DNA of 64,000 bases. Source: Cymodocea nodosa. Taxonomy: Eukaryota; Streptophyta; Magnoliopsida; Alismatales; Cymodoceaceae. Positions 11,448 to 64,000 of the stretch are shown piece by piece. The stretch lies in contig CM072343.1 of assembly GCA_036874045.1 (NCBI GenBank), positions 8,142,001-8,206,000 of the forward strand. The letters run 5' to 3'. Every line of letters begins with the position of its first letter. Positions within the stretch are counted from its first letter, which is position 1. The notes below the pieces were generated by a model, which ran no database searches, was not told where the DNA came from, and saw only the letters and a list, made by a program, of their open reading frames with translations. The position numbers were made by a program, and so were the translations under genes.

Positions 11448-11738
11448 AATAGAAATATACCACTTAGATAGAAGGAACCAATGGAAGTTAGACCTACTGG
11501 AGGATTGCCAATACAAGCTATACCTAATCCTGTCAATAGAACAGTTAATGAAATTGATACCTCTTCTGGGAGGGCAGTTGAATGAAGCAACATATCTGAA
11601 GCAACTATCTGTATGTATATATGTTTTTATTTTTATTTTAAGTTAATAGTATTGTAGAGTTATGCCTTAACTCCACGAGGGTGTGCAGTAGTTATGTTAA
11701 TTTTTGTCTCTACTAAATTTTTTTTATTTATTTTACAG
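11448..11738 (+). other. Spacer between gag and F-box ORF, with splice-acceptor-like site
   Basis: The region is mostly non-coding. An inverted-repeat fragment (TTAACTCCACGAG, near 11668) is followed by a pyrimidine-rich run ending in TTTTACAG at 11738, nine bases before the ATG at 11748. G3 keeps the same arrangement on the minus strand (CAG ending at 58647, ATG at 58637). A spliced RNA for a downstream ORF is known for some plant env-class elements. Its use here is inferred. Confidence 0.45.
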
Positions 11739-11747
11739 AATCGACAA

Positions 11748-15058: not shown

Positions 15059-15500
15059 AGGTGTTTTTCATCCCTAAAAAGATTTTTCGTTTGGTGTGTA
15101 GGGATAACTGGTCAATGAGAATTCTTTGCCTTTTATATTGTATCTTCATTTCATGCATATCTTCCACGTTTAATCACTATCAATCTTCCACTTCTTCATG
15201 TCTTTTCTTTTTCCTTCATCGAAATACACACGTTCTAACCCACGTTTACATTTCGAATTTTCTTTAATCATCAATCTTAGATCTTTGAAAATTTTCCTGC
15301 AAAATAAACTTTCTCGTCAAAAATCTTTCATCAAATGTAATAAGAAGTTACTTTAATGTTAACTAAATGAGTAAAACAAGTAGATATGTAACTTAACATT
15401 TCTAACTAAACGAGTTCCTCATGTGACAAGTACTGTAGCTAACTCAACAAACTAAGTCTGTGGTGTTACGCTAACTCAATGAACCATTTTGTGGTGTTAC
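15059..15500 (-). repeat. C2-family copia LTR fragment, reversed
   Basis: The reverse complement matches the C2 LTR from about 24940 to 25400, including the TATA region (TTTTATATTG near 15131) and the CTTCATCGAAA and GTACTGTAGC blocks. G1 is inserted at its left side, so the rest of this LTR should lie left of the window. It abuts a remnant of the C1 LTR near 15520 without its own LTR terminus, so it is truncated. Confidence 0.8.
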
Positions 15501-19150: not shown

Positions 19151-19399
19151 TGAAATTTCATGGAAATTCTCATTTGGATTTTAGACATGCTAAAAACTTT
19201 GATTCAGAAATTCTCCCAAAAATGGTACCAAATGATGTTGACAGAGAAATTGAGAGATTATCTAACGGAATAAGAAATATAAACTTAAATGACGAAGATT
19301 TAGAAGAAAATAATGTTATACCTATAGAAAATGTGGAACAACATAAAAATTGGCATTATACTTCATCTTATCCTATTGATCAGATAATAGGCGATCCTA

Positions 19400-27530: not shown

Positions 27531-27549
27531 GTGATGTACCTTCAGATGT

Positions 27550-38737: not shown

Positions 38738-40582
38738 TGTTTAGAATGAAAAAATGCATAATATTAAGGGTTAAATGATGGTTAATTGCATAATATTTAG
38801 CTTATCATATGAGAATTAAGCCATTATGTTATAATTGTACTATTATATGCGTTAATGAAAGAATCTACATAATTTCAAGGAAATAATGTTAATTAAGTAC
38901 ATTTCTAAATTGTTAGTGAATTGCAAGCTATGAAATTCTTAAGTATCTGAATTTTTTGGTATTTCGAAGAGTTATGTTTAATGTACCGGACAGTTATGTT
39001 TTAAATGCTAAAAGAATATTCAAGTACAAGTAACAACTCGTTAAGTTAGTGAGTAAAAACTATAAGTTATATATCTGAACTTGTTAAGTTAGCATAACTA
39101 TACACATTAAGTTACATGAATACACACTAAGGTAACGCGTTATGTTAGCAGCTTATTTCTTTATTGCACGTGTTTTATAGTTAAATTAACAAAGTAAGTC
39201 CGTTGAGTTTTCTATAACTCTATGGATCATTTATTTTCTAATATGCCACTGTAGCAGTTACAAAAATAGAACATTCGAAGGAAAACCACGATTACACGTA
39301 TCACATAGGAATTCACTCGTGGAAGGAAGAAGAAATCATCATCGTTCATATGAATGAAGGAAATCCAACCGATCATCTAAGCAAAAGCAGTTGCTATTGA
39401 AAGAAATATAAAAGAAGAGGAGAAAGACGAAGAAAGTGTGGTGGGCAGTGTGTGCAGAGGTGGAGGGCTGTGCTAACTGTAAGTAGCATTGGAAGTTCAC
39501 TGAAACTCCACACCATCACCAAAATCACCAACCATCGAAGGTCTGTAAGGATACTTTCCTGATGTTGGGTTGATTCCAATCCAAACATGGTGCTTGACAA
39601 CCATTGTGAGGAGTGATCACGTTGTGGGAAGGGAAGCCATTTTCACCAAGCACCGATTCATATCTCAAGAGATTGTAAAGCTTTTAGCCTTGGTTTCAGG
39701 TTGATGCCAGTATGCTGAAGAGGAGATCATCTTACAATTTTGGACTCGCGATTCTATAGGGAGAGGAGGCAAGATTGTAAGTGATTAAGTTTTTAGTGGT
39801 GTAATCATGTCACATGTAGTGATAGAAGTATTTACTGTCGATAGATATTTTTACATTTCACCTTTCATTCATCTTCATGAACATATCAAAACAAAAATAC
39901 CAAAAACAACAAATTATCTGTGTTTACATTTAGTATTTAAGTGTTGTATTGTTTGTTTGGTATCGTGATTAATGTTACCATTGTTAGTATTGTGAGTGTT
40001 TTATGTTTGTTTGATTCAGAAAATAGAAAATAGTTTTACAGTTTATTGAAATTGATTTGTTCCAAATACTTAATGATTTTAATGGTTACTGTTTGAAATA
40101 TCTGAATGTTAGTGTTGCTTAATAATAAATTTAATATTAATTAACATTGAAGAGCTTAATTGATGTTATTTACAATCTGTGGAACTGCCTAATGGTTAGC
40201 TGAATCCCTCTGTAAATAGCAGTATTTAATTGGAAAGATAGGCTTGTGGAGTTAACTTAAGTTCACGAGGTTAGTATGTTGAGTTAGCCATAACTCTACG
40301 AACTAGGTCCGTTGTGTTAACTGTAACTCAACGGAGTGCTTACTGAACACATATACTCCAATATAAAAATCAGAACAGTACACAATTCTTACTCAATCTC
40401 TGTGGGATCGACCTATACTTGCACACAAATACAATATACACTATGCACTTGTAGTTAAAATACAAATTGGAATTAATATCTAATTTATGTGAAAGGTTGT
40501 TAGTTTACTTCTAAAACTAATTATTGATATAAGCATAAAGACAAATTAAACAAGTAAAAACAGAAGTAACAAACCCCAAACA
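38738..40582 (+). repeat. G2 5' LTR, 1845 bp
   Basis: It starts TGTTTAGAATG and ends CCAAACA. It is similar in length and layout to the G1 LTR but clearly diverged from it. A TATA-like TATAAAA lies at 39407-39413, a diverged copy of the shared upstream module at about 39076-39173 (ending in GCACGTG), and inverted-repeat words at 40280-40335. Confidence 0.93.
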
Positions 40583-40589
40583 AGTTTTC

Positions 40590-40607
40590 TAGCACCATTG
40601 CTAGGGA
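40590..40607 (+). other. G2 primer binding site (tRNA-Asp type, diverged)
   Basis: TAGCACCATTGCTAGGGA is a diverged version of the G1 primer site at the same distance from the LTR end. Confidence 0.75.
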
Positions 40608-40688
40608 TTGAGAAGTTACGCAACTGTGAGTGTTGTTTTGTTTTAATAGCAAGAGGAGTGTTGTGTGTTTTATTCTATAATTGAGAAT

Positions 40689-42350
40689 ATGGCATATGCT
40701 TATGTTCCAAGATTTTTGAAACCTGTAGTTAGCATATGTGAATTCTGCAATTTGGCAGGTCACGACATCTCTGATTGTTTGAAAATAAGACGGTTGTAGA
40801 TGGTTAGATTACATGAACAACAAATGAATTATCTTCAATATAGTAGAGTTGAGTATGAGAATCTTATAGTTTACCCAACTGATGGTCAATTTAGAATGTG
40901 TAATATGTTGAGAGACAAGGAAGTTTGGGATAGGTATGACAGACTAGAGCGTAGCTTAGAGAAAAACATGGACAAATTGGAACAATACATGTGTCAGCAA
41001 CAAGAATTCAACCAATTAAACTATAGAGAAGAATATTCAGAACCTAAAATTGATATCATTTACGAAACTGAAAAAACCAGAACGAAAATTGATAAGAAAT
41101 TGAATGCAATGAGATTAAATGATTTGGAAAGAAAACTAAAAGCATTGGATGAATTTACAATGAAATTACAAGTTATGCAACAGGAAAACACAAACAAATG
41201 AAAACTTTAATGTTACAAAAGTGCATAATTTGCAAGACATACAAACAAAAGAAAATACCAATGCAATAGAATTTAAAGAATGCAATTTAAAATTAAAAAC
41301 AGTTGAAGATCATAATCATGAAAATGATATACAAGAACATCATGAAAGTAACGAAAATCTGGAAGATGTATGTATAACATTAAGATCTAGAACTGATATA
41401 CCACCAAGAATTCAAAAAGAAAGTAATATGAAGGTGGATAAGAGCAAAAATCAAAATGATAATGAAAATGTAATATCTGAAAACATAGAAATTAATGAAG
41501 AAAAATCTAAATCTGAAAATGAGACTAAAAATGATCAAACAAATCAAATAAAAGAAAAAAAATCTTTTAAATCACAATCATTAACACCCTATCCTCAAAT
41601 ATTACAACAAACATTTCTTGAAAAGCAAGAAAAAATTAAAGAAATTTTTGAAAAATTACAAGTTAACATTCCTTTGTTAGACTTATTGTAGAAAATGCCA
41701 CCTTGTGCTAAATTTCTTAAGGATTGGTGTACTAAGAAAAAAGAGTGAAAAGTTTTAAGGAAATTCTTTTTAGCTAAGCAAAGTAGTTCCCTATTTCTGC
41801 CACAAATTCCTAAAAAGTTATTTAATCTTGGAATTCCTATTGTATCATGCACTATAAGAAATACCATCCTAGAAAGAACTTTAATAGACCTAGGTGCAGG
41901 TATAAATGTTATGCCAAGTGATATATTTGCATCCTTAGGATTTGAAGGCTTAATCCCTACTAGGACTATTATTCAATTAGCTGATAAAAGTATAAGATAC
42001 CCTAGAAGAAAAATAGACGGTCTTAATTAAAATAAAAAATTTCATATATCCAATTGATATTGTAATTTTGGATTCCCAAGAAATTAAGTATAAAAATCGT
42101 GATACATCTTTAATCTTGGGAAGGCCATTCTTAGCAACATCAGGGGCTATTGTAAATTGTAAAACTAGAGTAATGAAGTTAGCATATGTTAATGAGGATA
42201 CTCAATTAAATATTTTTAAACTAGAAAAGTTTGAGGAGTTAGAAATGTCCTTACATACTATAGACTTTTTAGAGGATGAAGGAGATATGCTAGATGATGT
42301 GATTCAAGAAGAACTAAATAGGCAACTAAATTCTAAAACTTTAAGAGAAA
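40689..42350 (+). pseudogene. G2 zinc-knuckle gag part and protease
   Basis: It starts MAYAYVPRFLKPVVSI, with the knuckle CEFCNLAGHDISDC. The charged linker with CITLRSRTDIPPRIQ follows. The protease region has LGAGINVMPSDIFASLG near 41890-41945 and LILGRPFLATSGA near 42110. It is parallel to 1735-3478 in G1. It is broken. Confidence 0.82.
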
Positions 42351-42365
42351 GTGAAAGCATAAATA

Positions 42366-43550
42366 TAGAAGTAGTCAGGAAGGAAATAGTGAAATGGTTA
42401 GATAATGACATAATTTATCCGATTTTTGATAGCTCACGGGTTAGTCTAATCCATGTAGTTCCCAAGAAATCAGGATTAACAATTATTAGGAACAAAAGTG
42501 AGGACTTGATACCTACTAGAATTCAATTAGGCTGGAGAGTGTGTATATACTATAGAAAGCTAAATGCTGTGACTAGTAAAGATCATTTTCCCTTAGCTTT
42601 TATAGATCAAATGTTAGAGAAATTAGCAGGGCAAGAATATTTTTGTTTCCTAAACGGGTATTCAGGATATAACCAAGTGTCAGTAAGTAGCATTAGAGGA
42701 TCAAGAGAAAACAACTTTCACCTGTCCTAATGGAACTTATGCTTTTAAGAGAATGCCATTTGGATTACACAATGCACTAGCCACCTTTCAAAGGTGTATG
42801 CAGGGCATATTCACTAGAATGATTGAAGATTTTTTAGAAATATTTATGGATGATTTTACTATTTATGGAACTTCATATGAAATGTGTTTAAATAATTTAA
42901 ACCAAATGTTAAAACGCTGTGTGGAAAAAAATCTGGTTCTAAATTGGGAAAAATGTCACTTCATGGTTAAACAAGGAATAATCTTGGGACATGTTATTTC
43001 AAAGAAAGGGTTGGAAGTAGATAAAGCTAAAATAGAAGTAATTTCTAATCTACCAGAACCTAAATCAGTAAAAGATATTAGATCATTTCTAGGACATGCT
43101 GGATTATATAGAAGATTTATTAAAGACTTTAGCAAAATAGCTAGACCTTTAACTAATCTATTAAAAGATGTCTCATTTAACTTTGATAAAAATTGCAAAG
43201 AAGCATTTTTCAAGCTTAAACAAGCTTAATTTCAACTCCTATAATACAAGCACCTGATTGGAGCCATCTATTTGAATTAATGTGCAATGCATCTGATTTT
43301 TCTGTAAGAGCAGTGTTGGGACAAAAGATAAACAAATCTCCTAGAGTGATTCATTATGTATGCAAAACCTTAAATGATACTCAAGTTAATTATACAACTA
43401 TTGAAAAAGAGCTGTTAGCTGTTGTGTTTGCCTTAGAAAAGTTTAGGTCATATCTGATTGGAGCTAAAGTGATAGTTTACATGGATCATTCAGCTTTAAA
43501 ACACCTAATAGCAATGAAAGAGACTAAACCTTGATTGATCCGATGGATAT
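42366..43550 (+). pseudogene. G2 reverse transcriptase and RNase H
   Basis: Blocks seen are [44 protein letters not shown] (near 42840-42880), [15 protein letters not shown], and RNase H with [18 protein letters not shown]. Same lineage as G1. It is broken. Confidence 0.9.
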
Positions 43551-44950
43551 TATTATTGCAAGAATTTGATCAAGAAATTAAAGATAAAAAAGGTTGTGAG
43601 AATGTAGTAGCAAATCATTTATCAAGATTACAAATAGAAAAGTCAAATATTGAAATTAAGGATAATTTTCTTGATGAACAATTAATGACCATCAACACAA
43701 TGCCTTGGTATGCAAACATAGTTAATTACTTAGTTACTAGTTTAACACCTAAGGATTGGAATAGATAGGATAAGAAATTGTTCTTTTCAAGAGTAAAATA
43801 TTACTATTGGGAAGACCCATACTTATTTAAGAAATGTCCTGATCTGGTTTTAAGGAGGTGTGTTCCAGAAACTGAATATTAGAGCATATTGTCTTTTTGC
43901 CATGACCAAGCATGTGGAGGGCATTTTGGTTCAGGGAAAATTGCTACCAAAATTCTGCAATGTGGATTTTATTGGCCAACACTATTCAAAAATGCTCATA
44001 AATACTGCTTAAGTTGTTTAAGATGTCAACAAATAGGAAGAATATCAAAGAGGAATATGATGCCTCTCAATCCTATTGTTGAGGTTGAAATCTTTGATGT
44101 GTGGGGAATAGATTTTATGGGTCCATTTCCTATGTCTAATCAATTTAATTATATATTGTTGGGGGTGGATTATGCATCTAAATGGATAGAAGCTATTCCT
44201 ATAAAAACTAATGACAATAAAGTGGTAATACATTTTATAAGAACTAATATAATTGCTAGATTTGGAGTACCTAAAACTATTATCAGTGATAGAGGAACTC
44301 ATTTTTATAATAGAAGTTTTGAAACCTTAATGAAGAAATATGGAGTAAATCACAAAATTGCAACATTATATCATCCGCAAACAAGTGGACAAGTAGAAAG
44401 TGCAAACAAACAAATTAAGTTAATCTTAGAAAAAGTAGTAAATCATACTAGAAAAGATTGGGCTAATAGATTAATAGATGCACTTTGGGTTTATAGAATT
44501 GCTTATAAGACAAGCTTAGGTATGTCACCTTTTAGGCTAGTATATGGAAAAACTGTCATTTGCTAGCTGAAATTGAACATAAAGCTTATTGGGCATTAAA
44601 AACTCTAAATACTAATTTAAATCAAGCTGCTGAAAATAGGAAAATGTAATTGATTGAATTGGAAGAATTTAGGAATAAGCTTATTCGAAAACTGTAAGAG
44701 AAAAAGAGAAAATGAAGTTCTGGCATGACAAGAAAATTATTCCAAAAACCTTTCAAATAGGACAAGAAGTATATCTTTACATGACTAGACTTCATAACCA
44801 TCTAGGAAAATTAAGATCTAGATGGCAAGACCTTACATAATTTGAAATATTTATTCCTATAGAGCTATTGAAATTGAAAATCCTAAAAATCAAAATATAT
44901 TTAAAGTAAATGGACAAAGACTTAGATCTATTCTGAAAATACCAAAAAGT
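43551..44950 (+). pseudogene. G2 integrase
   Basis: The zinc site (CHDQACGGHFG with CLRCQQIG, about 43897-44035) is followed by the DDE core with [22 protein letters not shown] and TSGQVESANKQ. The C-terminal half is more decayed than in G1. Confidence 0.88.
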
Positions 44951-45730
44951 TCCTTTAGAATCATAGAAGAAGTAAGAGTAGAGGACTACTCGAGCTTTAC
45001 TTAGTAAAAATTAGCTAAGTGTTTGTTTTGTCAAAAAAAAAACCTTATTTAAACATAGTCACGGTTCAACTGAAAGGAATTATCGATTTTACCAAAACAT
45101 ATTTTAAAAGAAAAAAAATCATTGCGGTTCAACCGATAAGATCCAACGGATTGATTGAATCTCAAAAACATAAAAAAATCTATATATTATATTCAGTATA
45201 ATGTTGGTGTTACCGAAGTATAGTATCGGTTCAACTGATAGATAGAAAAGAAGAAAAAAAAAATTAATTTTGGTGCAACCGAGGAATATAACGGTTTGAC
45301 TAAATTTTAAAATGTTGGAAAATTAAGAGTCGATTAGACCAAAAATTCTTCGATTTGACCGAAGTAAAAATTATTATTATAAATATTTTTATTAGATATA
45401 ACTTTACAAAAAGTTCGTTGAGTTATGCTTAACTCAACAAACTTATTTCGTTGAGTCTAGAATAAGTTAACAAATTTACCCCATTGAGTTAACTATAACT
45501 CAACGGAGTACTGTAGTTAAGTCTATAGACTTAGTCCGTGGAGTTAACTGTAATTCCACGGAGAGGTAGATGAGAGAGCAAGAGTTTGTGTGGAAAAATG
45601 ACCCGATTACCCGCTTAAACTTAAGGCTTATTTATACTAAACTTAGGGTTTGAGGGCATTATCCACAAAATCATTTAGAATTTAGAACAGTAGAGATCAG
45701 AGCGATTCCGTTCCATTTCATAACTCCACG
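44951..45730 (+). repeat. G2 spacer: hairpin array and inverted repeats
   Basis: No gene. Between about 45050 and 45380 are diverged copies of the ACCGAAG...CGGT inverted repeats (for example ACCGAAGTATAGTATCGGT at 45210-45228). Then GTTGAGTTA-type inverted repeats follow at 45416-45440 and 45484-45505, and TCCGTGGAGTTA with TAATTCCACGGA at 45535-45562. The layout matches G1 6287-7074. Confidence 0.75.
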
Positions 45731-47943
45731 ATGAAAAAGATGACACTAGAATTTTGGGAGGAAGTAGTTGACACAACAACATTTCTTAAAGAATCAGAAG
45801 AATAGCACACAAGCCAAAAGATTAGAAATACGACGAGGGAAAAAGAGCTACAAAAGGTAGAATCTGTCCTGTTTTACTAGAAAAAAGTTTTAGTGGATTT
45901 AAGCATACAAATACCTCAGATTATGGAAACGAGAATTAGAGTAGCTATAGAAGTTGCATTAAATAGAGAGAAAAATCAGACCAAATAATGAAGTTGCCTT
46001 AGAATTGATCCAACGTAAGTCCCAACTATAGTTCAAAAGACGCATAGGTGGACATGCACGGTGGGCAATCTAAGAGCAACAGAGGAAAGGAATTGAAGAA
46101 TATGCAACTGAAGAACAAGAGGAACTAACTGCTGAAAGACCTATCCTTGAGGAACAACAGCCAAGACCTTTAGTTCCGCCAACAGAACCATTACCACGAA
46201 TAGCATTTGTTTAGCTGAGAACTGAAGAAGAAGATAAAGAGTTTGCTAGCTTGGTCAAAATAGCAAAAGACCAAGGAGATAATGAAGAATTGGCTATAGC
46301 CAAGGCACATATTCTATATGATGCCATAAAGAGAAGGCAGACAGAAGAAAAGTTGAAAGGCCAATACAAAATTAAAGTAGAGCAACATTAAGAAGAAGCT
46401 AGATTAAGTGCTGCAAAAGGAACTAAAGCTGGTCCTTCGAGACCAGTAATTATAGAAAAAGTTAAATAGGAAGAGCTAGTACTTGTGGCTCGAGGGCCTG
46501 CAAAGCCTATTTTTGTAGATTTAATCTCAAAAGAAGAAGAGGAAGACTAGGTACAATTAATTAGAAAAAGGAAAAGAAAAGAGATAGTGCTTGAACATTA
46601 AGAAGAGATTAAATCTGAGATGCAAATATTAGTAGGGCCTATAGAGTCGATTTTTGTAGACCTGCTATTCGATTTTAAGGATGAGTAGGAGCAGCAACAG
46701 CAAGAGAAAAGAGAAGAAGAAAATTAGGTTGAAAATAATCTATAGCCTATACAAATAGAAATTAGGGTAGAAGATGATTTGCCCGTAACTCCATCCCAAT
46801 CTGCCATAGAATAAAAAAGAACAGTGACAATGCAGATTGGTAGTCAGGAGGAAGAAGGAGCATATTGAACAAGAACGAAATGACTCGACAGATTCCACTA
46901 AAGAGCAAGAAACTCTTCAGCAAATTTTGGAAAGAATTCAAGATAAAGTGGAGAGTTCTGCAGGCTCACCACCATAGAAAGAAGTAGAAGCAAAAATGTA
47001 GGAATCTCTAGAGCATTTTCAGCCAATTCAAGTTAAGCACATGGAAGAGGAAGTTCAAGAACAAACCCCTTTGGAGCAACAAATTCAAATACCTGACCTA
47101 ACGGAAGCAATAGTTTTCGAATGAAGTACACTTTTGGCGTTAGGAAGCATATAATAAATATCAAGAGATTAGGGGTTATAATATCATTTATAGTAGACCA
47201 GTAAACTAGGACGGGATGTAAGAAATTAAGGATTTATTTGAGTTCTAGGGTCTACTGCAATTTATTTCTCAATATAGAGGGCATGTAGTATATGAGAATC
47301 TAGTGCTCTACTTCTATGCAAATTTAAGAGAGGAGAAAGTGGATTAATTTCCAACGTGGAGCAAGTTGATGTACAGATAACACCAGAGCTTCTCCACAAC
47401 ATTTTAGGATTGAAGAATGAAGGAATAGAAATTCTAGAAAGCACAATTGTAGTTGAATGGACAAAACAAATAATAAAGGATTGTTTAGATATCAATCTTG
47501 GTGTGCCATTATTATATAGACTGAAGCACTTAAATGGTAAAACACACATGATAGCTAACATTTTGATTAAGAATGTCTACCAATGACAAGGCCATGATAT
47601 AGAACTAAGTCAATTTGTCAAATGGGCCACATATGTAGTTGTGAACAAAATTTAGATTAATTGGTCTATTGTTTTTATCTCTAAGCTAAGAGTAGTAAAG
47701 AAGAAACTATTTTATGGAGATCTGATTCCATTGCTGATGGTGGACAGTATTGATTTCACAAAATGAGCATCCAAAAGGATCAGATCAAGAACCATTTCAG
47801 TGAAAGAATACAGAAATTATGTTGCTGTTGAGATTGCTGAACCTTCTAGAGGCATTATTGGACCTGTAGAGAAGATAAATCTATTAGAGCAACAATTAGA
47901 AAAACTCCAGAAGGAAGTAGATGAACTTAGGAAGAAAGATTAA
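45731..47943 (+). pseudogene. G2 accessory ORF region (decayed)
   Basis: It has the same start context as G1. It contains two SIM-like segments (PIFVDLIS near 46510, SIFVDLL near 46650) and the plant-transposon-protein-like domain (about 47210-47760, with ITPELLHNILGLKNEG and LKHLNGKTHMIANIL). It ends in the same coiled-coil tail. Many breaks. Confidence 0.7.
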
Positions 47944-49009
47944 ATTGTATTGGTCATCTACTTGTACTTATATTTGTATAAAAATATCTGATTGATTGTA
48001 ATGTAAACTATTCATATAAATGAATGTATGTTTTTCAGATGTATTTTTCATTCGTGTTTAAGAATGATATAATAGAGAACTATCTTGAATATTATATAAC
48101 TATTTAAACAATGAGCAAGACTGTTTAAAAGATTTACAAATTTGTTGAATGACAGGATTAAATACATGATAATTGGTTAATGTTTGAATATATCTATATG
48201 TTGAAAAGTAAAATGTAAATTTTGCACAGTAGGAAATGAACTGTAAGTTAAATATGCATATAATGTTCAGATTTAAATGAGTTTTATTTAGAACACTACA
48301 GTAATGACATGTATTTAACTTTATTTAAGTTAACAAAATACAGCAGAAGAAAAAATATATAGAAGTTAATACGAGGAGTAAGTTTTAGAAATTTGCTAAG
48401 TGTTAACTCAACAGAGTAAGTTCGTTGAGTTAACCTTAACTCCACGAGGTCAATAATATAATATAAGGTCACTCCGTTGAGTTATTTGTAACTCAACGAA
48501 GTTAGTCCGTAGAGTTAGCAACAGTAACCGAAGCTAGTCCGTTGAATTAACTGTAACTCAACGAGGTTAGTTCATGGATTAAGCTAAACAGTTATTCTTT
48601 TAGCCACGAAATAAACTTTGTGGGTTTAGCGGTTACTAAAATTTGAAATTAGAAGTAGAACACGTATCCATAAAAATAGGAACCACACTACACATTTCAA
48701 GACACATTCTTGCAACAAGATTCATTTACTTTATAGACATGCATTATAAATATAGAACAGAATGTTATTTACGAGCTACCAGCACTTGAGGGGAGAAAAG
48801 GAAATTCGTTGGGGAACTAGAAGGAGAAGCAATTGATTGAACTTCATCCGTCAACGACTATTTACTAAATATAAAGCTTTAGCCAGGTATGTAATTAATC
48901 TTCTGATTTTTTACTTTATGTTAAGAGTTTATGAGCACATGGATTTGTTCTCCTAGCACTAAATGATTAGTAAGAACAACTACATAGGATTATTCAACAC
49001 AGAGGCATA
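47944..49009 (+). other. G2 non-coding stretch before gag
   Basis: AT-rich with no gene. From 48420 to 48570 it has a cluster of inverted repeats, one perfect at 48475-48498 (CGTTGAGTTA, spacer TTTG, TAACTCAACG). The remains of the small ORF seen at 9977 in G1 lie at 48640-48890. Confidence 0.65.
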
Positions 49010-50132
49010 TTGAAATATTTTCTGAATTGAACTTTAATGAAATCCTTAGGAGTGTAGCTAACCTTTCTTTAAAAGAGAACGAAGATATGGATGCTCAAGT
49101 AGAAAAACCATTAGGGAAAATTCTGTATCCTAAATTAGTTGATGAACCTTTATGTATTCGATTGCCAAACTTTGAGAGAGATAGGTTTGAATTGAAATAT
49201 AATTATATTAGTCAATTGCCACATTTTCATGGATTAGAAAGAGAGGATCCTATTATTTCCTTAGAAAATTTAACGAAGTTTGTCAAATGATAAAAATGCC
49301 GAACATGAATATAAATGCTATTAAACTTAGATATATTCCTTTTGCTTTAAAAGACACAACTAAGAGATGGTTATATACTCTATTGTCTGATTCAATTTCT
49401 ACATGGATTAAATTTTTCTTTGTTTTTCTGGAAAAATATTATTCGACACATCAAATGATTAAAAAGAAAAAGAAAATATTAATGTGTAGCCAAAAACAAG
49501 GAGAATCATTCTAGAAATATTTTGAAAGATTTACTGATTCAATGTCTATATCATGTAATGAGTAAAGCACAATTAATAGGTATAATTTATGAAGGCATAG
49601 ATGTTTCAACGAAATATTTATTAGAATCTACTTGTCAGAATGGATTTTTAAAACTATGTAGTGAAGAAGCATGGGCATACTTAGAAAACTTTGTTAAAAG
49701 AACTACACAATGAGAAAACTCGACTAAAGCTATTACAAATAAAAGAATATTGCTAAGGGGAATGCATGAAATAGATTCAAGCATTATGCTTGAAGTTAAA
49801 TTAACTGAATTAACAAAGAAAATAGATGAGTTATCATTAAATTAGAAGCTAGCAGAAAAGAATGCAAATGTTCATGATTTAGATATTATTTATGCTAGAA
49901 ACCAGAAAGATAACTTTGGAAATTCTTATAACCCTAATTGGAGAAATCACCCGAATCTATCTTGGAGAAACAACAATTTCGAGTGAGGAGAAAATATAAA
50001 TGACAAAAATATAAGTTATGAAGCATTAATTGGACATGGATCTAGAATAGAGAAATTAGAAAAGATAATCCAACAATTAAACAATCATCTAGATCTTGTA
50101 TTTGGAAATGCTGCCATTCAAAATCAAAATAT
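49010..50132 (+). pseudogene. G2 main gag domain, located 3' of pol
   Basis: It matches G1 gag block by block (SLKENEDMDAQVEKPLGKIL, QLPHFHGLERED, ALKDTTKRWLYTL, FLEKYYSTHQ, LLESTCQNGFLKLCSEEAWA, then YNPNWRNHPNLSWRNNN). It is decayed. It confirms that the gag-after-pol order is a family property. C3a begins at its end. Confidence 0.88.
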
Positions 50133-51354
50133 TGTTAGGACGCTAGTATTTTGATAATGCAAAAACCTATGTGAGGAAACATATTGTATTTCACAATGAA
50201 GACAATGCAGTAAAAGATCGGAAGGCAGATAAACAGATACAGGTAGTTCAAAAATTACTGCTATAAAGCTGCAAGAAAATCGAATAGTTACCAAGCCAAG
50301 TATCCGGAAGAAAGTTAATTTTCGATAAGTTACAGGCTTAAGTATCCAAAGAGTAAAGTAGTAGAAATATCATCGGACAGTTAGAAGAATAACTATCCGA
50401 ATTTATAAAGCCTTCGGAGAGTTAAATAATTGGACAATTAAGAAAGATTGAATGATCGGAGAGGTAAGGAGTTAACTATTCGGAAGCTAAAGGAGTTTTT
50501 GGTAAGTTAGAAAAGATAACAATCTGAAACTTAAGTCAATCAAATACCCATGTGTAGAAATCCAGAACAAAAGACTTAAGTGATTTTTCGGTGAGTTAGA
50601 AAGCTAACTATCCGAAAAACAGGAATTTTCGGAAGGTTACAGACTTATCTATCTGAAAACTTAAGTTATTCTTTTATGCACGTGCTGAAATAAGAAAGCA
50701 GTTGAAAACTTAAAGAGAAGGATTTTGAAGGATTACTGTAGCTAACTATCTGACAATCAAAGGATAGTTCAGTAAGTTATAGTTACAAGTATCCGATCGG
50801 GTGACAACTCATTGTACGATCTGAAATTCTACATGGCAGAAAGACTTAAGTGATTTCTCGGTGAGTTACAAACATCCTTCGAAGAGTTACTCAGCTAACT
50901 ATCCGAAAGTTTGAGAAAATCGAAAGGGTATCTTAAAATACCTCCCTGAACGATAACTTACCAAATTTAGGTTAAGTTTAAAACTGTTGGTTCGTGAGTT
51001 TCAACCTGAAAACTCATTGTTGATTGAGAGCTTCAACTTGAAAGCTCGAAGAAAGGTTGGTTATTGAGCTTATACTTGAAATCTCTAAGTGTTGGTTTTT
51101 GCTTCAACCTGAAAGCAAGTGTTGTAAGTACTTGTTTACTTAGTGAAGCTCAAGTGTATCTTGGGGGTGGACTAGCTATGTTGGTGAACCACCTAAAATT
51201 TGCCTTGTGTTCCTTCTTTTTTTTCTTCTGTTTAGCTTTGAGTTAATTTATTTCTTCTCCTCACTTTTAAAATCAGTCGATTCTAAATTAAAAGAAGTAA
51301 AATTTACACACTTCACCATTCACCCCCCCTCTAGTGAGCCTATTGATCCTAACA
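50133..51354 (+). repeat. C3a 5' LTR, 1222 bp
   Basis: It starts TGTTAGGACGC and ends GATCCTAACA. It has many words of the types TAACTATCCGAA, TTCGGTGAGTTA and ACTTAAGT, forming loose inverted repeats, plus GCACGTGCTG near 50689. It is shorter than the other two C3-family LTRs in the window (1686 and 1408 bp), and the number of internal repeat units appears to vary. Confidence 0.9.
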
Positions 51355-51356
51355 AT

Positions 51357-52973: not shown

Positions 52974-54272
52974 TTGCAAGATGACAAGGAGCTCGAAGCA
53001 CATACAACAAAATGGATTGTGGACAGTGGATGTTCAAAGTACATGAAAGGTAAGAAAATATTTCTTGATTCAGTCAAATATTTAAGTTCAGGATCTGTTA
53101 AATTTGAAAATAATGAAAAGTGTAAAATAACTGCAATAGGAAATATTACATCTAAAAATGGTAGAATTGAGAATGTCTTGCATGTCAATGGTCTAAAACA
53201 GAATTTATTAAGTGTAGGACAATTATGTGATAAAGGCTACATAGTCATATTTACTGTTGAGAATTGTCTTATTATTGATCCAACTTCAAATGAAATAAAA
53301 TTTACTGGTGATAGAAATTGCTCAATTTATACTATAAACTTTCCATGTGAAAATTCTGCAAGTAATTCCTGTTTGGTAGCATCTAGTGAAGATGATTGGT
53401 TGTGCCATAAAAGACTTGGTCACGTTAGTATGAAGACTCTCAGAAAGTTATCCAAGGGTGATCTTGTCAGGGGACTACCTAAACTTACATTTAAGAAAGA
53501 TAGGGTGTGTAGTGATTGTATGCTAGGCAAGTAGAAGAGAACTTCTCTTCATAGCAAAAATGCATTTACCACCAAAAGGCCATTAGAACTGTTACATCTG
53601 GATTTGTTTGGCCCATCTCAAGTATCAAGTCTTGGGGGTCGAAAATATACCTTTGTTATTGTTGATGATTTCTCTAGATTAACTTGGGTAATATTTTTGA
53701 CACATAAAAATGAGACTTGCAATGAGTTCAGAAACTTCTACATAAGAGTTCAGAATCAGAAGGATCTAATAGTGAAGAAAATCAGAAGTGATCGTGGAGG
53801 CGAATTTGAAAACTATGAATTTGAAAATCTTTGCAATGCATTTGGAATCCTACATGAATTCTCCTGTCCTAGAACACCAGCACAAAATGGAGTTGTGGAA
53901 AGGAAAAATAGAACATTGCAAGAAATGACTAGAACTATGTTGAATGCAACTAATTTGCCAAAATTTCTTTGGGCTGAAGTTGTAGGTACAGCCTGTCACA
54001 TATCCAACAGGACTCATATCAAATCTTTGAAGAATAAAACTCCTTTTGAACTTTGGTTTGATAAGACTCCAAATGTTGGTCATTTTAAGACTTTCGGATG
54101 TAGATGCTTTGTATTAAATACTGGAAATGCTAAAGACAAGTTTGATGCAAAATCTGAAACTACTATACTTGTTGGATACTCATCCAGAAGCAAAGCATAC
54201 AGAGTATACTTTGCCAAAGACAAAAGAGTAGAAGAAAGCATAAATGTTCAGTTTGATGAAGAATTGATATAG
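52974..54272 (+). pseudogene. C3a protease and integrase
   Basis: The protease has TKWIVDSGCSKYMKGKK (about 53007-53057). The zinc domain has CHKRLGHVSMKTL and CSDCMLGK. The integrase core has LDLFGPSQVSSLGGRKYTF, VDDFSRLTWV, IRSDRGGEFEN and NGVVERKNRTLQEM, with D, D and E in place, and ends with TILVGYSSRSKAYRVY. It is the best-preserved copia integrase in the window. Confidence 0.92.
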
Positions 54273-55003: not shown

Positions 55004-55772
55004 TATCTGATGCTCAGGTGTATTTCGAATACTTACAAACTTAACTATCCGATGCCTAAATGCATTTCAGATAGTTACAGACTTAATTATCCGATGCTCA
55101 GATGCATTTCAGATAGTTATAGATAACTCATCGATATATAACTTAAGTCAATCTTCTAGATCACAACACGTGTCATCAGCAGTTTTAGAATAAAGAAATA
55201 TTTCGGAGAGTTACAAGTCTAACTATCCGATGCCTAGATGCATTTTGGATAGTTACAGATAACTCATCGAAAATTCACTTAAGTCATTCTTCCAAAACAT
55301 GACACGTGTCCATAGCTATTTTATAATAAAAGGAGATTTTAGAGAGTTACACATATAACTATCCGATGCCCAGCTGTAATTTCGGATACTTAGAGATAAC
55401 TCACCGAAAGTTCACTTAAGTCATGAATTATGGTTTCGACACGTGTACTTCAGGAAATAATAAAATATTCTTTTAAAACATAACTATTCGGCAGTTTAAA
55501 TATAATTATCCTGTACATGTTCGGTACGTTAAACATAACTATCCGAAATAACAGAAAATTTGGATACTTAAGAATTTCATAGCCTACAATTTACCAACAG
55601 TTCAAAAATGCACTAAATTATCATTAATTTCCTAAAATTAAGTAGATTCTTTCATTAAAGAATATAATAGTGCAATTATAACATAATGGCTTAATTCTCA
55701 TATGATAAGCTAAATATTATGCAATTAACCATCATTTAACCGTTAATATTATGCACTTTTTCATTCTAAACA
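55004..55772 (-). repeat. G3 3' LTR, partial, with 136-bp tandem repeats
   Basis: The LTR start on the minus strand is at 55772. Three tandem units begin at 55085, 55221 and 55357 on the plus strand with AA(C/T)TATCCGATGC, 136 bp apart, and a diverged fourth start lies at 55492. Each unit holds, in plus-strand order, an inverted repeat (ATCCGATGC with GCATTT and GGATAGTTA), then ATAACTCA(C/T)CGA, then ACTTAAGTCA, then ACACGTGT. G1 has only one comparable palindrome at the matching place. Confidence 0.82.
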
Positions 55773-57599: not shown

Positions 57600-58637
57600 T
57601 TAGTTCGTGTTCCTTCTTAATTTGTAAACTTGTAGTATATTATCAATGCTAAATACAAGTGTATTACCATTAGTGAAATGAAATGCAAAAAGGGATTCTT
57701 TTCGGTTCCAGGATAATGAAGTAGTTTCTATTTCTACATCTATTTCAATATATTTCTTTTCCCACTTCCATTCATTTATGTATTTCATAATACACATTTG
57801 AAATTTCATCAATTCATCCCACCATCTTATCAGACATAAAGTAGGATCATCATATTCATTATACCACATCCATATTTGAATTTTATCAAATTCTGTAGAT
57901 GGTGGTTTAGCTATTTTTCTTGGTATAGGCAAAATTTCTATATATTCATCATAACTATCTATGCTTACTATGTATAAATCAGATCTAAATGCAACTGATA
58001 TATTTGTGACTAGATATATATATCCATCAAGTATGACATGCATGTTGTTAATTAATGATTTTTGTCCTAGATATATCATAATGTTTTCAGTCAAAGATCT
58101 ATTCAGAAAATTATACACACTCAAGCATAAATCTTCATCCCATTTTCCTGTAAGACTCCAATAATATAATTTTTCAAGAATGGTCAAATTTTTATCAGAA
58201 AATATTAAAGCCGACCCACAATTTTCAATTGGTACTTCATATCTATCAGGTCTTCCTATATTCCATTCTTCTCTTGTGATAAGATTTCTGATCAAAATAT
58301 CAGGTAATAGAATTGCATACATTGGTTTGGTCCTGTATATAATTACTCCTTCATCCATCCCCATAATATGATCTATTCCTTCTAATGTATTGAATGGAAT
58401 TCCAGTAGTTTCCTCCATATTCAGATATTCATGGCTAATTGAACTACGATTAAATGACTTCCATATGAATCCATCTCTAGTCTTAGTCATTTTTGTAGCT
58501 TGTAGTCCCTGAAAATATTTTTCTCCAACACAGCCTTTAATTTCCTTTGATACACAACACAGCCTACACAGATCTTTAGTTGACAAGTTACTCAGTACTT
58601 CCCTTAGTGCATCTAGCGGTAATTGCATCAATTCCAT
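57600..58637 (-). CDS. F-box protein gene carried by the Athila-type element G3
   Basis: An open frame of 345 codons from the ATG at 58637. I chose this ATG, not the upstream in-frame one, because an F-box should start near the N-terminus and because a splice-acceptor-like CAG (58647) lies just before it. Residues 4-45 form an F-box (LPLDALREVLSNLSTKDL, then CRLCCVSKEIKG), the Skp1-binding part of SCF ubiquitin ligases. Residues about 140-280 resemble the plant F-box-associated region (CGSALIFSDKN; HVILDGYIYLV; LYIVSIDSYDEYIEILPIP; LCLIRWWDELM). It lies between the gag tail and the 3' LTR, as in G1 (11748-12320). F-box genes are host genes, so capture is inferred. No signal peptide or membrane segment is seen. 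The substrate is unknown. Confidence 0.8.
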   Translation of the reverse strand: MELMQLPLDALREVLSNLSTKDLCRLCCVSKEIKGCVGEKYFQGLQATKMTKTRDGFIWKSFNRSSISHEYLNMEETTGIPFNTLEGIDHIMGMDEGVIIYRTKPMYAILLPDILIRNLITREEWNIGRPDRYEVPIENCGSALIFSDKNLTILEKLYYWSLTGKWDEDLCLSVYNFLNRSLTENIMIYLGQKSLINNMHVILDGYIYLVTNISVAFRSDLYIVSIDSYDEYIEILPIPRKIAKPPSTEFDKIQIWMWYNEYDDPTLCLIRWWDELMKFQMCIMKYINEWKWEKKYIEIDVEIETTSLSWNRKESLFAFHFTNGNTLVFSIDNILQVYKLRRNTN

Positions 58638-59020
58638 TTGTTGATTCTGTATAACACAAACAAAAATTTTAGTAGAGACAAAAATTAACATAACTACTAC
58701 ACTCCCTCGTGGAGTTAGGGCATAACTCAATGAACTAAGTTCGTTGAGTTAAGGACTAACTCTACGATACTATTAACTATAAATAAACTTATATATATAT
58801 AGTTACTTCAGTTATATTGCTTCATTCAGCTATCCTCCTAGAAGAGGTATCAATTTCATTAATAGTTCTATTGATAGGGTTAGGTATTGCTTATATTGGC
58901 AATCCTCTAGTGGGTCTAACTTCCATTGATTCCTTCTGTCTAAGTGGTATGTTTCTATTCTGATTTTGAATTACAGCATTTTCAAATACAAAATCTAGAC
59001 AATTGTCTAATTGTTGGATT
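58638..59020 (-). other. G3 spacer and gag tail
   Basis: Next to the F-box start is a splice-acceptor-like site (minus strand, CAG ending at 58646-58648). Inverted-repeat words (CTCGTGGAGTTA near 58705; GTTCGTTGAGTTA near 58740) lie upstream. From about 58830 to 59020 the minus strand matches the end of G1 gag and the following spacer (G1 11400-11580). C3b begins at 59021. Confidence 0.7.
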
Positions 59021-60706
59021 TGTTAGGATCGGTAGGCTCACTAGAGGGGGGGTGAATGGTGAAAGTGTGTAGTTTTTAAAATTCTTTTGATGTTGAATCG
59101 AATGATCTAACAGAAATGTAATGAGATGAAATTAAATGAATGCAAATCAGAGAGAAAAGAATCACACAGCAAATTTTTAGATGGTTCACCAACTTGGCTA
59201 GTCCACTCCCAAGATTCACTTGGGCTTCACTAAGTGTTTCAACACTTACACACTTGCTTTCAGGTCAAAGCAAGAACCAACTACACAGAGTTTTCAGGTA
59301 TAAACTTCAGTAAACCAACCTCTAGAGTTTTCAGGTCAAAACTCAAACCAACACTGAATGTAGCTTTCAAGTTGAAGCCACGAACCAACAGCTTGAATCT
59401 TTCAATCAGAGTTTTGGCGCACAGAGCTTTTTCTGTAGTAGGTCTTTAGAATATTCTTCACTATTTGTAGACTTGAGTGTAATTGGAATTGGAGTGTAGC
59501 TCACTGTATGTGGTATATCCGTTATCTCTGTATTTTCCTTTCTTAAACTCCTCATATTTATACCAAAGGTATAACGATCATATTTCTCTGTCAACATATA
59601 TATTCTACTATACTTGATTAGACACCAGTCAAATATGGTAAGTTACTGTTCAGAAAGTTATTTCAAGATGTCTTACGGATTTTCCTAACCTTTCGGATAA
59701 TTAGCTATGTAACTCTCAGAAGAAAATTTGTAACTCACTGAAAGATCACTTAAACCTTTCTAACAGGTAGGATTTCAGAATATTTACTGCAAGCTGTCAT
59801 TCAGTCGGATACTTATAACTATAACTCACCGAACAGTTATATAACTGTCAGATAGTTGGTTACAGTAACCCTTTGTTAACTTTTTGATTGCTTCAATTCA
59901 GCACGTGCATAAAATGCTGACTTAAGTTTCGGATGGTAATCCCTGTAACTCACCGAAACGCTTCAGGATTTCGGATAGTTATCTTTCTAACTCTCCAAAA
60001 ACTTATTTGAGCTTCTCGTTGGAATTCTGCACGTGGGAAATTCAATGACTTAAGTTTCGGATGGTTATCCTTGTAACTCACCGAAAAACTTATTTCGGAT
60101 AGTTATCTAACTCTCTGATTTTCCCTTTTAAGCTTTCAATTGCCGGCTTCTCCATTTTGCACGTGCATAATAAGATGACTTAAGTTCCAGAAAGTTATAC
60201 CTGTAACTTACCGAAAAACTCGAATAGTTATCTAACTCTCCAAAAAGAAAACTCGGAGAGTTATCTAACTCTCCGACAAGTCCTTTAAGCTTCCGTTCTG
60301 TATTTCTACACGTGATTTATTGAATGACTTAAGTTTCGGATAGTTAGCCTTTCTAACTTTCTGATTTTCTTTTTCTTTCGGATAGTTAACTCCTTAACTC
60401 TCTAATCATTCAACCAACTTAACTGTCCGATTATTTAACTCTCCGAAGGCTTTGAAAACTTCGGATAGTTATCTTTCTAAATGTTCGATAGTCTTGTAGC
60501 TGTTTTACTCTTCGAATACTTGGACCTGTAACTGTCCGAATTTCCTATAGCTTTAAGGCAGTATCTTCTAGAACTTCCTCCATCTGTTCGTCTGTTTGGA
60601 ATTTGTTCTATCTGCCTTCTAATCTAATGCTGCTCTAACTTAACTGTGAAATATAATATGTTTCCTCACATAGGTTTTGCATTATCAAAATACTAGAGTC
60701 CTAACA
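59021..60706 (-). repeat. C3b 3' LTR, 1686 bp, with composite repeat array
   Basis: On the minus strand it starts TGTTAGGACTC and ends GATCCTAACA. Plus-strand CACGTG boxes at 59902, 60030, 60160 and 60309 are about 130-150 bp apart. Each is followed by ATGACTTAAGT or a close variant and then by inverted repeats of GGATAGTTA with TAACT(C)(A/T)CCGA. One repeat at 60254-60275 is perfect (CGGAGAGTTA, spacer TC, TAACTCTCCG). A TATA-like TATAAAT lies at 59556-59562 on the minus strand. Confidence 0.88.
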
Positions 60707-61272
60707 ATCTCCTCCTTTTTGATAATGACAAAATCTTTTACATTAAATTACATGTATTTCACTCCCTAGTGTATTTCTATACATTTAGTCACATAGAGAA
60801 CCAAATAAACAGGAATTTATCAAGACTATATTGAAGTGTAGGGATTCCTCCCCCTGACTTTGTGTTGTCTTCTCCCCCTATCTGTGTGCTGAGTTTTTTC
60901 TTCACCTCTTTTAATAATTCTCTTTCAGTTCTTGCTGGAAATACTATAAGGGACATATACTTTACTAATTTCCAAAATCTTCTACCCCTTTTTGTCATTA
61001 TATAAATAGGTGAGGATAGTAAAACTGATATTGAATATATCCTGCACAAGTAAGTTAGCAGAAAACAAGCTCCGATATGGTGAGCTTGATGAAAAAAATA
61101 TTTAAAGATCTAGTAAAGAACATATGGCTAGATTTCTTCTAATATGATTAAAAGTTGATTTAATTAAAGGTTTGGTGAAAATATCTGCAAGTTGATTTTC
61201 TATTGGCACAAACTTAAGTGAGATGTTCTCTTTTTCCACATGATCTCTCAGAAAATGATGTCTGATCTCGAT
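60707..61272 (-). pseudogene. C3b RNase H tail and untranslated region
   Basis: The minus strand from about 61270 to 61102 encodes IEIRHHFLRDHVEKENISL and LADIFTKPLIKSTFNHIRR, the end of copia RNase H. Between it and the LTR are two GGGGGAG tracts (minus strand, 60848-60855 and 60870-60880) and the polypurine tract AAAAAGGAGGAGAT (60707-60720). No accessory ORF is seen here, unlike C1 and C2. Confidence 0.8.
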
Positions 61273-62742
61273 TAAGGAGTGAAATACATGTAAATAAATG
61301 TAAAGGATTTTGTCATTATCAAAAAGGGGGAGATTGTTAGGACCCAAGTATTTTGATAATGCAAAAACCTATGTGAGGAAACATATTGTATTTCACAGAT
61401 AAGTCAGTGCAACAAAAGATCAGAAGGCAAACAAACAAGATGTAGTTAATTCCAGAATGTGCTGCTATAGAGTTACAGAAAATCAGACAGTTCCAGACTT
61501 AAGTATTCGAAGAGCAAGTCTAAAGCAGTAGCAACATTGTCGGACAGTTAGAAGAATAACTATCCAAAATCATAAAGCCTTCGGAGAGTTGTGAAAGGTA
61601 GTTGGTTGAATGATCAGAAAGATAAGAAGTTAACTATCCGAAAGCTCAAGGAAAATCGGAAAGTTAGAAAGGCTAACTATCTGAAACTTAAGTCATTCAA
61701 TTAACCACGTGTAGAAATCCAGAACATAAGCTTAAAGGACTTTTTGGAGAGTTAGAAAGATAACTATCCGAAATTTGAAGAATTTCAGTGAGTTACAAGT
61801 ATAACCATCCGGAACATAAGTTATCCTATTACGTGTGTGCAGAATTAAAAAGATAGCAGTCAAAAGCTCAAAAGAAAAATCGGAGAGTTACTGTAGTTAA
61901 CTATCTGGAAGTCAAGAGTTTTTCGGTAAGTTAAAACTACAAGTCTCCGAATACTTGACACCTCACGTGAACAACTTAAAATCCTCACGTGACACAAACA
62001 ACAGGATGTAAGTGAAGTTTCGGTAAGTTATAGACACTTTTCGGTGAGTTATTCATATAACCATCCGAAAATCAAAGGAAATCGGAGGGTTACTTACTAA
62101 ACATCAGACAGAACGGTAATTTACCATATTTAGGTCTGATTATTTAGCAAGTACAGTAGAATACATCCATTGGAAGAAAAATATGATTGTTATACCTTTT
62201 GGTATAATATGAGAAGTTTAAGAGAAGATCAGATAGAGATAACGATCATACATTATACTGTGAGCTACACAAAATTCCAAATACACTCTCAAATCTACAA
62301 CAGTCAAGTATACTCTTAAATATTCATTGTAGAAAAGTGCCCTTTGCCAAAACTCTAATAGAAAAATTCAAAGTTGTTGGTTCATGAGTTTCAACCTGAG
62401 AACTCATTGTTGGTTGAGAGCTTCAACAACCTGAAAGCTCAAAAGAAAGGTTGGTTATTGAGTTTATACTTGAAAGCTCTAAGTGTTGGTTCTTGCTTCA
62501 ACTCGAAAGCAAGTGTTGTAAGTACTTGTGTACTTAGTGAAGCCCAAGTGTATCTTGGGGGTGAACTAGCCAAGTTGGTGAACCACCTAAAATTTGTTGT
62601 GTGTTATTTTCTTACTATTTTGTTTACATTTAAGTCATTTCATCTCACTATGTTGTAGAATCAATCAATTCTAAGATAAAAGAATTAAAAATTACACACA
62701 TTCACCATTCACCTCGCTCTGGTGACCCTTTCGATCCTAACA
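61273..62742 (+). mobile_element. C3c: 3' end of another C3-family copia element
   Basis: A short piece of untranslated region (GAGTGAAATACATG onward) and the polypurine tract AAAAAGGGGGAGAT (61321-61334) precede a complete LTR at 61335-62742 (1408 bp, TGTTAGGACCC to GATCCTAACA). It is the mirror partner of C3b, making an inverted pair. The two are clearly diverged, so they are separate insertions or an old rearrangement. The right flank starts AGAAG. Confidence 0.88.
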
Positions 62743-64000
62743 AGAAGTACAGTTAAACAAATCACATTGATTTATATTATACTGCATGATTCATCCCTTG
62801 AATTACCTACTTCTACGTATTTATTACCTTGTTTCATGATAAAAGGAATTTTAGTCTTAGATTTACTTGAACTGCAACTAATAAATCCTTTATTAGCTTG
62901 AGATTTAAGATATTCAAGATAATCAAATCCTAAGCCAAATTTATATGACACCACAGGGGTACTAGTTAGTTTGACTTAAATTCCATTTCTCAATGGCAGA
63001 ATTTAAATCTAGCTCTCTCATTTTTAAGTTATCAATCTCTACCTCAAAATCATTTTTATTGTTTTTCAACATTTCATTTTCAAATTATATCTTTAATTTT
63101 TCAGCATTTATATTCTGTATTTGTTCATGAAAGACACATTCTTTAAATCTAAATTTATGCAAATCTTTAGCATGATTTTCATTATCACATTTAAACTTTT
63201 CTAAAGTAGTAGACAGGAAACAATTTTCTTCTTCCACAATGGATAAAGAGTTTCTGATATTCTTATTTTCTAGTTTACAAACTTTAAGTTTTTGTAATAA
63301 TGCATAATAAGCACATAATAATTCATCAAAGTTAAAATCTGAATAACTTTCAAGATCAGATATTACCTCAGACTCATCTACCATGAAGCACACATGAGCA
63401 ACGTCTGCTAACACTTGTTCTTCTTCTGAATGTGAAGATTTTGATGATGATTCCTTAGATTCAGACTCTTCAGACGTGTCATCCCAAGTGACCTTCAAAG
63501 CCTTTTTCTTGTAAAACTTTTTCTGAGTTTTCTAAGTCGTCTTCTTCTGATTTGTCCTATTATGCTTTTCATTTTTCCTTATAGGACAATCTGGAGAAAG
63601 ATGTCCAGGTTTCTTACAATTGTAACATACATACTTTCTAGATGAAGAAGTCTTGTTATTCAGTGATTTTGACGTTGAGGGTTTATCATTCTTGTTCCTT
63701 TGTTGTTTCCTAGCTTTCCATGCTTTCCTGAATTTCCTAGTTAGCAAAATCAAATCTTCGTCAAAATCAGTAGATATATTAGAATCTGAATTAATTTCGA
63801 AAGCTATTTCTTTCTTCATTTTTAATTTATTTTGACTTAGTGATTCATTTAATTAAACTTCATAAGCAGTTAAGTTTCCTATAAGTTCATTCATGGTATA
63901 AACATTTAAATCTTGTGATTCTTCAATTGATGTTACTTTCTGAGACCATTTAGAACTTAGGGATCTGAGAATTTTCCTCACCAAATCCTTTTGTTCAAAA
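62743..64000 (-). mobile_element. C2-family copia element, reversed, gag part, leaves window
   Basis: On the minus strand, gag of the C2 type is seen: zinc knuckle CYNCKKPGHLSPDC (about 63635-63595), LILLTRKFRKAWKARKQQRN, Ser/Glu-rich stretch, coiled coil, and then KFGLGFDYLEYLKSQAN, the segment before protease. It is closely related to 26650-27500 of C2 and extends into sequence that C2 does not have. It has a few breaks. Confidence 0.88.

Follow-up and report, generated by a model that had tools for sequence, protein, structure and literature searches.

A 64-kb window of Cymodocea nodosa DNA (the whole stretch analysed, 64,000 nucleotides of contig CM072343.1 in assembly GCA_036874045.1) contains three insertions, G1, G2 and G3, of one high-copy retrotransposon family that, judged by its sequence, would be classed as Athila-like Ty3/gypsy. 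Our subject is an open reading frame (ORF) in G3 that encodes an F-box protein (Table 1). The original prediction, made from the letters alone, had described an intact ORF of 345 codons. The open frame is there, on the minus strand: the plus strand of the interval is full of stops, and its complement is open for 345 codons. Intactness did not hold up. Among 30 loci compared, 24 share a downstream stop that lies 33 codons beyond that of the window copy, four end after 17 extra codons, one after 13 and the window copy after none; the usual gene is thus about 378 codons long, slightly more than is left in the window copy.

The F-box identity was confirmed by a Pfam scan, in which PF00646 matched the window copy with an expectation value (E) of 1.2e-9 and a score of 38.1 bits, where 20.5 are required. 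The same domain was matched in all 12 stop-free copies scanned, comprising the window copy and 11 others from the genome. In one large group of plant F-box proteins the F-box is followed C-terminally by a second domain, FBA_1. It was found in 6 of the 12 copies, always below the cut-off and with E values up to 10, the best match having an E of 0.012 and 16.0 bits against 21.1; of five copies scanned for its position, three show it, at residues 201–310 or 201–312, with 14.4–16.0 bits. The frame is not open by chance, since the coding frame of 70 aligned genomic copies has 0–4 stops per copy as compared to means of 36 and 45 in the other two forward frames, and all 117 matches scored in the genome are nearly full length. 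One stop-free copy, L071, has an in-frame insertion of five residues near residue 210 that resembles the adjacent residues.

G3 is a fragment that runs from the gag tail to a partial long terminal repeat (LTR), and structural evidence was therefore drawn from G1 and from other genomic copies. In G3, a 136-bp tandem repeat occupies positions 55064–55424, near the beginning of its LTR. As an insertion G1 is complete and bears the hallmarks of an LTR retrotransposon: LTRs of about 1.84–1.86 kb bounded by TG...CA, a primer-binding site, and a flanking target site duplication, AGGTG. Read from its left end, it comprises 5′ LTR, zinc-knuckle ORF, protease, reverse transcriptase (RT)/RNase H, integrase, Transposase_32-like ORF, capsid gag, F-box remnant and 3′ LTR. 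The two LTRs differ by a Kimura two-parameter (K2P) distance of 0.045 over the 1,610 sites within the window (63 transitions, 6 transversions), which corresponds to an insertion age of 1.7–3.2 million years at rates of 1.3e-8 and 7e-9.

The F-box gene follows capsid gag in the same orientation, at a distance of about 0.33 kb. A same-sense gag was found upstream of it in 26 of 30 loci of 4 kb, and gag was covered over at least 70% of its length in 58 of 70 aligned copies. Of four 10-kb loci, three have the order integrase, Transposase_32-like ORF, gag, F-box; the fourth is interrupted, with other sequence upstream of gag. The F-box gene and the 3′ LTR are about 1.8 kb apart in G3; the corresponding gaps are 1.2 kb (L031) and 0.3 kb (L003). 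These data agree with the original placement of the ORF between the gag tail and the 3′ LTR of G3. The degraded copy that had been proposed for G1 is a related piece, in that G1 11821–12289 aligns with 57805–58273 in inverted orientation at 87.7%, but the F-box itself has been lost there.

Table 1. Features of the F-box gene and of the insertions G1, G2 and G3 (positions in the window)
Feature	Positions	Strand	Basis or remark
F-box ORF of fragment G3	57600–58637	minus	single open frame, 345 codons from ATG
F-box domain	58527–58628	minus	residues 4–37; PF00646; PF12937 E 1.4e-5
FBA_1-like stretch	57702–58037	minus	residues 201–312; placed through sister-copy match, below Pfam cut-off
T-rich tract that ends in a conserved AG (9 nt upstream of the ATG); putative 3′ splice site	58647–58685	minus	column conservation
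gag tail in G3, upstream of F-box ORF	58960–59020	minus	matches G1 11387–11447
Start of G3 3′ LTR, partial, overlapping 136-bp tandem repeat	55114–55772	minus	piecewise match to G1 13204–13547
5′ LTR of G1	1–1610	plus	first 228 bases left of window
Primer-binding site like tRNA-Asp, G1	1618–1635	plus	16/18 against tRNA end
5′ ORF of G1, CCHC zinc knuckle at 1783	1657–2634	plus	no capsid domain found
Aspartic protease, G1	2711–3478	plus	sub-threshold Pfam match
Reverse transcriptase and RNase H, G1	3566–4918	plus	Pfam
Integrase, G1	4931–6286	plus	Pfam
Transposase_32-like ORF, G1	8571–9269	plus	PF20167 E 8.7e-6, 26.2 bits, cut-off 45
gag (capsid, PF03732), G1, downstream of pol	10308–11447	plus	E 9.9e-20
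Degraded F-box gene of G1	11694–12320	plus	F-box domain lost, 0 Pfam families
3′ LTR of G1, TG...CA	13204–15058	plus	
Target site duplication AGGTG, G1	15059–15063	plus	other copy just left of window, L035 1768–1772
G2, same family	39067–50131	plus	same order through gag end; broken off before F-box position

We searched the 375-Mb assembly (28 contigs) with the F-box protein and scored 117 of 6,756 first-look candidates. Every scored match begins at residue 1–2 and ends at 343–345, with 83–100% identity, and 18 of the 117 places, spread over 10 contigs, are free of stops. An 18-mer from the gag tail occurs 2,204 times genome-wide as compared to once for its reversed control. On one contig (C1), where the two lists were compared by eye, it lies 384–408 bases away on the gag side at seven of nine F-box places. 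For copy alignments we took ranks 1–70 of the 117 by similarity to the window F-box protein, a sample that favours well-kept F-box genes; 70 of 72 rows were kept, the window's G1 and G2 falling below 70% F-box coverage. L031, L032 and L033 were left out as the same places as L002, L008 and L020, and L035 is not a copy. Gag analyses used the 58 of these 70 copies that reached 70% gag coverage, the other 12 falling short of it. Counted in this F-box-selected sample, the F-box ORF is resident in many copies of the family. The proposal that it moved with the family was drawn at first from two insertions; the ORF is not confined to these, given the 117 scored matches and the 58 copies with gag upstream. 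Distances among the 70 copies range from K2P 0.007 to 0.087, with a median of 0.056. Within a cluster on contig C18 (L002, L003, L004, L005 and L009), pairs were seen at K2P 0.007–0.019 as compared to that median, which suggests local recent copies or a segmental duplication.

To ask how the gene has evolved, we fitted codon models with separate ratios of nonsynonymous to synonymous rates (ω) for internal branches, which represent source elements, and terminal branches, which are mostly post-insertion. Raw pairwise ratios are uninformative here because the decay of inserted copies is dominated by transitions (transition/transversion rate ratio, κ, about 8.5). With 70 F-box copies, ω was 0.319 on internal and 0.730 on terminal branches (log-likelihood, lnL, −9847.24); a single ω gave lnL −9859.72, and fixing internal ω at 1 gave −9874.81. 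In the 58 copies with both genes, internal ω was 0.311 for the F-box gene and 0.362 for gag. Setting it to 1 cost 27.6 lnL units for the F-box gene with 70 copies, 24.2 with 58 copies, and 16.9 for gag. On a tree from gag plus spacer alone, internal ω of the F-box gene was 0.274, with profile drops of 1.65 at 0.20 and 2.40 at 0.40 (a range of roughly 0.2–0.4), and on a tree from all three pieces it was 0.322; gag gave 0.375 and 0.390 on the same two trees.

Control sequences behaved differently. Internal ω was 1.79, 0.66 and 0.80 in the three frames of the downstream DNA (29 copies), 0.96 in the spacer (67 copies), 0.63 and 1.05 in the off-frames of the F-box gene, and 0.59 and 1.33 in those of gag. 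Allowing two ω values instead of one gained 12.5 lnL units for the F-box gene and 9.6 for gag, and no control gained more than 3.0; for downstream frame 1 the one-ω fit was 0.14 units better than the two-ω fit, a small shortfall of the optimiser. The true frames are set apart by a lower internal ω together with a gap between internal and terminal branches. One-ω fits of the eight control frames ranged from 0.58 to 0.99, and since this is the baseline, the terminal value of 0.73 is no evidence of selection: single copies decay about neutrally after insertion. The original prediction had held that a dN/dS near 1 among copies would refute it. Such a ratio is absent from the internal branches (0.27–0.32), but the terminal branches do look neutral. 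A domesticated host gene that merely overlaps copies of the element might account for the 18 stop-free places. Their spread over 10 contigs and a terminal ω within the control range both argue against this explanation, which we regard as highly improbable.

A second comparison used shared and private variants. Among F-box variants other than C/T and G/A, the ratio of nonsynonymous to synonymous changes was 189:17 for private and 41:14 for shared variants (Fisher p 0.0015), and the same test gave p values of 0.69 for gag, 1.0 for the spacer and 0.19 for the downstream DNA. With all variants included the values were 0.0003 for the F-box gene, 0.16 for gag, 0.04 for the spacer and 0.19 downstream; C/T and G/A changes were excluded because, to judge by the spacer, the all-variant test seems to be blurred by mutation hot spots.

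Several observations weigh against selection on the gene or against its assignment. Fixing internal ω at 1 is also worse in frame 1 of the F-box gene and of gag, by 3.7 and 4.2 lnL units, and since these two controls reject it too, an ω below 1 is by itself no proof. The internal branches are short (0.215 as compared to 1.893 for terminal branches). The shared/private test has little power, because it is non-significant for gag, which is expected to be functional, and plain codon-position counts show no clear bias in either gene. The sample was ranked by F-box similarity, and in the 58 copies there are 1.7 stops per copy in the F-box gene as compared to 3.7 in gag; such ranking can lower both ω and the stop count of the F-box gene, and gag, which was not so chosen, behaves alike in ω. 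As for the protein, FBA_1 stays below the cut-off in sister copies and has no Pfam match in the window copy, and a single-sequence AlphaFold model was useless, with a predicted local distance difference test score (pLDDT) of 35. Finally, protein searches gave no host parent. On balance the F-box gene looks to be under purifying selection on internal branches, like gag.

A passenger gene, caught once from the host in a source element and copied along without use to it, is one alternative. Transduced host genes are known in plant LTR elements (PMC7264820), and the copies do decay after insertion, with at least one stop in 58 of the 70 aligned. A passenger should nevertheless resemble the controls, whereas the internal ω of the F-box gene, 0.27–0.32, is as low as that of gag and the internal/terminal gap appears in the true frames only. 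We consider a passenger origin of the pattern distinctly unlikely. By the tests made here, the ORF is real, present in many copies and selected. Since its sequence seems to have been preserved while the element multiplied, the element probably uses its F-box gene. The reading we favour, and hold to be reasonably probable, is that of a resident accessory gene in a high-copy Athila-like Ty3/gypsy family, encoding an F-box and an FBA-like C-terminus, kept by selection and likely to work through an SKP1–cullin–F-box (SCF) ubiquitin ligase.

Through its F-box a protein becomes attached to SKP1, and hence to a cullin ubiquitin ligase; the choice of target falls to the remaining part of the protein. 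For a selected F-box gene in a retroelement, the most economical reading is that replication is helped by removing or controlling some protein. In the likely course of events, the protein would be made from element mRNA, probably spliced; its F-box would dock on host SKP1/ASK and form an SCF ubiquitin ligase; and the C-terminal part would recruit a protein whose removal or control may benefit the element. Silencing factors, other host restriction factors and the element's own proteins are candidate targets. The gene would have originated by capture of a host F-box/FBA gene. Genes of this type serve plants to tag proteins for degradation, and here a very abundant plant retrotransposon has one of its own.

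In a special case of the favoured reading, the element would encode an SCF receptor through which a silencing factor is eliminated, the role proposed for polerovirus P0. F-box-like silencing suppressors of plant viruses interact with SKP1 (PMC6593998, PMC6784205), and the transition-heavy decay of the copies is what might be expected of methylated DNA. The P0 precedent is not simple, however, because PMC6593998 states that a contribution to the loss of AGO1 has been demonstrated for autophagy, not clearly for the SCF, and leaves open what P0–SKP1 binding does in suppression. Counter-defence of this kind is conceivable, and we give it a minority weight. Alternatively, the F-box protein might regulate the level of the element's own Gag or Pol, or sequester SKP1 without a target. 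The F-box gene adjoins gag and internal ω is similar in both, but position and selection are the only support for such self-control, which we think unlikely.

Sense accessory ORFs of Athila-like elements are a known kind, and it is the type of protein and the gene order that are unusual here. Like the sense ORFs between pol and the 3′ LTR of Athila, Calypso and Bagy2 (aORF-3S, eORF-3′F, env-like), the F-box gene shows the corresponding position and selection. Those ORFs are described as env-like, transposase-like or of unknown kind (PMC6317226), whereas here the product is an F-box protein and gag stands between pol and the extra ORF. Orchid Ty3/gypsy elements have likewise gained a recognisable domain in an extra ORF that is retained within a family, that of a 2-ODD (m6A demethylase) (PMC9289625). 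The protein and pathway are different, and the title of that work reports a functional domain, whereas the F-box gene is known from sequence alone. Maize Bs1 and other transduced genes are also host-like genes inside LTR elements, present in one or a few copies according to the review (PMC7264820), as compared to at least 117 scored places, and selection, for the F-box gene. Polerovirus P0 and crinivirus p22 are silencing suppressors encoded by parasites and could, like the element's protein, bind SKP1 through an F-box or a motif resembling one (PMC6593998, PMC6784205); they are proteins of plant RNA viruses and are likened to the element's F-box by motif only. Plant host F-box/FBA_1 proteins share an N-terminal F-box and the FBA_1-like stretch at residues 201–312, but FBA_1 is below the cut-off here and the gene is carried by a retrotransposon.

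The host parent that the original prediction expected from protein searches did not emerge. A search with a single copy gave 867 candidates, none at E 1e-3, and one with 12 copies gave 2,341, none at E 1, both in a collection whose plant content is not known. Against PDB, one copy gave a single chance-level row at E 1.3 and the 12 copies gave none; among viral contigs, 96 pattern stretches were found and none was confirmed. In the literature searched, mainly by titles and with subscription papers and supplements outside its scope, no LTR retrotransposon with an accessory gene of the F-box type came to light. The term F-box was counted 0 times in the available text of PMC7264820, PMC11963269, PMC13317346 and PMC9289625, and in the main text of PMC6317226, supplements lying outside these counts. 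F-box family members do appear in the accessible part of PMC8764390, as host retrogenes and one 'LTR-gene', and are not presented there as an element's own gene. In nematodes the exchange went the other way, F-box genes having gained a transposase domain (PMC12062965). Extra ORFs are common in plant LTR elements and mostly of unknown kind and function (PMC7264820); REXdb sorts the extra-ORF proteins of Ty3/gypsy into 314 groups, and 21.4% of all eORF proteins have CDD matches (PMC6317226).

The extra gene described here has both a recognisable biochemical handle, predicted docking on SKP1, and gag-like selection, and because of these two properties the role of such genes for an element becomes directly testable through a ubiquitin-ligase target. 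Its expression may depend on splicing. The AG that ends the T-rich tract upstream of the ATG looks like a candidate 3′ splice site, and in 67 aligned copies the commonest letter has a share of 0.99 at the A and 0.88 at the G. Splicing of the extra gene of barley Bagy2 is cited in PMC7264820.

A second oddity, on which the original prediction did not remark, is that gag lies behind pol. Capsid gag has this position in the complete insertion G1 and in L031, L032 and L034, and G2 agrees with this order as far as gag; judged by eye, the gag frame of L031 and that of L032 each extend back to their own ATG. In G1 the CCHC zinc knuckle remains in a separate 5′ ORF, apart from the capsid, so that gag is both split and displaced. 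This raises the question by what route Gag was produced in a family that has some 2,200 gag-bearing places and its capsid gene behind pol.

Family assignment rests on G1. Its primer site was scored against what we take to be the tRNA-Asp end, and in seven scanned ORFs, the pol ORFs included and inter-ORF stretches not scanned, there was no archaeal-type additional RNase H, the marker of Tat. A tRNA-Asp primer site, as G1 has, is given for the Athila group (PMC1142308), and PF20167 has been found in an extra ORF of sunflower Athila (PMC11728184). By the criteria in PMC6317226 and PMC1142308, this primer site, together with scanned ORFs free of an additional RNase H, fits Athila and not Tat. Of the Ty3/gypsy order GAG-PROT-RT-RH-INT (PMC6317226), G1 shows PROT-RT-RH-INT, with capsid GAG after INT instead of first. 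We call the family Athila-like, not Athila, because the position of GAG departs from that order. No description of a gag displaced behind pol was found in the literature searched, including the available portions of PMC1142308 and PMC6317226.

More speculatively, this would be an LTR lineage with its own selected SCF receptor used as counter-defence and with its capsid moved behind pol as part of a shared 3′ module, both expressed from spliced messages. We put forward this combination as an unlikely but conceivable reading. If it is true, the strategy of retroviral accessory genes, hijacking of a ubiquitin ligase, has evolved independently in a plant retrotransposon.

Other features of the window are listed for completeness. 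Rfam has no match anywhere in the 64 kb. A second Transposase_32-like ORF lies outside G1–G3 at 32006–32767 (E 8.6e-5, below the cut-off). Pieces of Ty1/copia elements (copia gag, RVT_2, integrase and neighbouring domains) are found among the Athila-like elements at 17925–19587, 26426–28435 and 52974–54272. G2 and G3 both end at the gag end beside related sequence (50131–51355 and 59020–62743), and the second of these stretches has inverted ends of about 0.65 kb, resembling a fold-back element.
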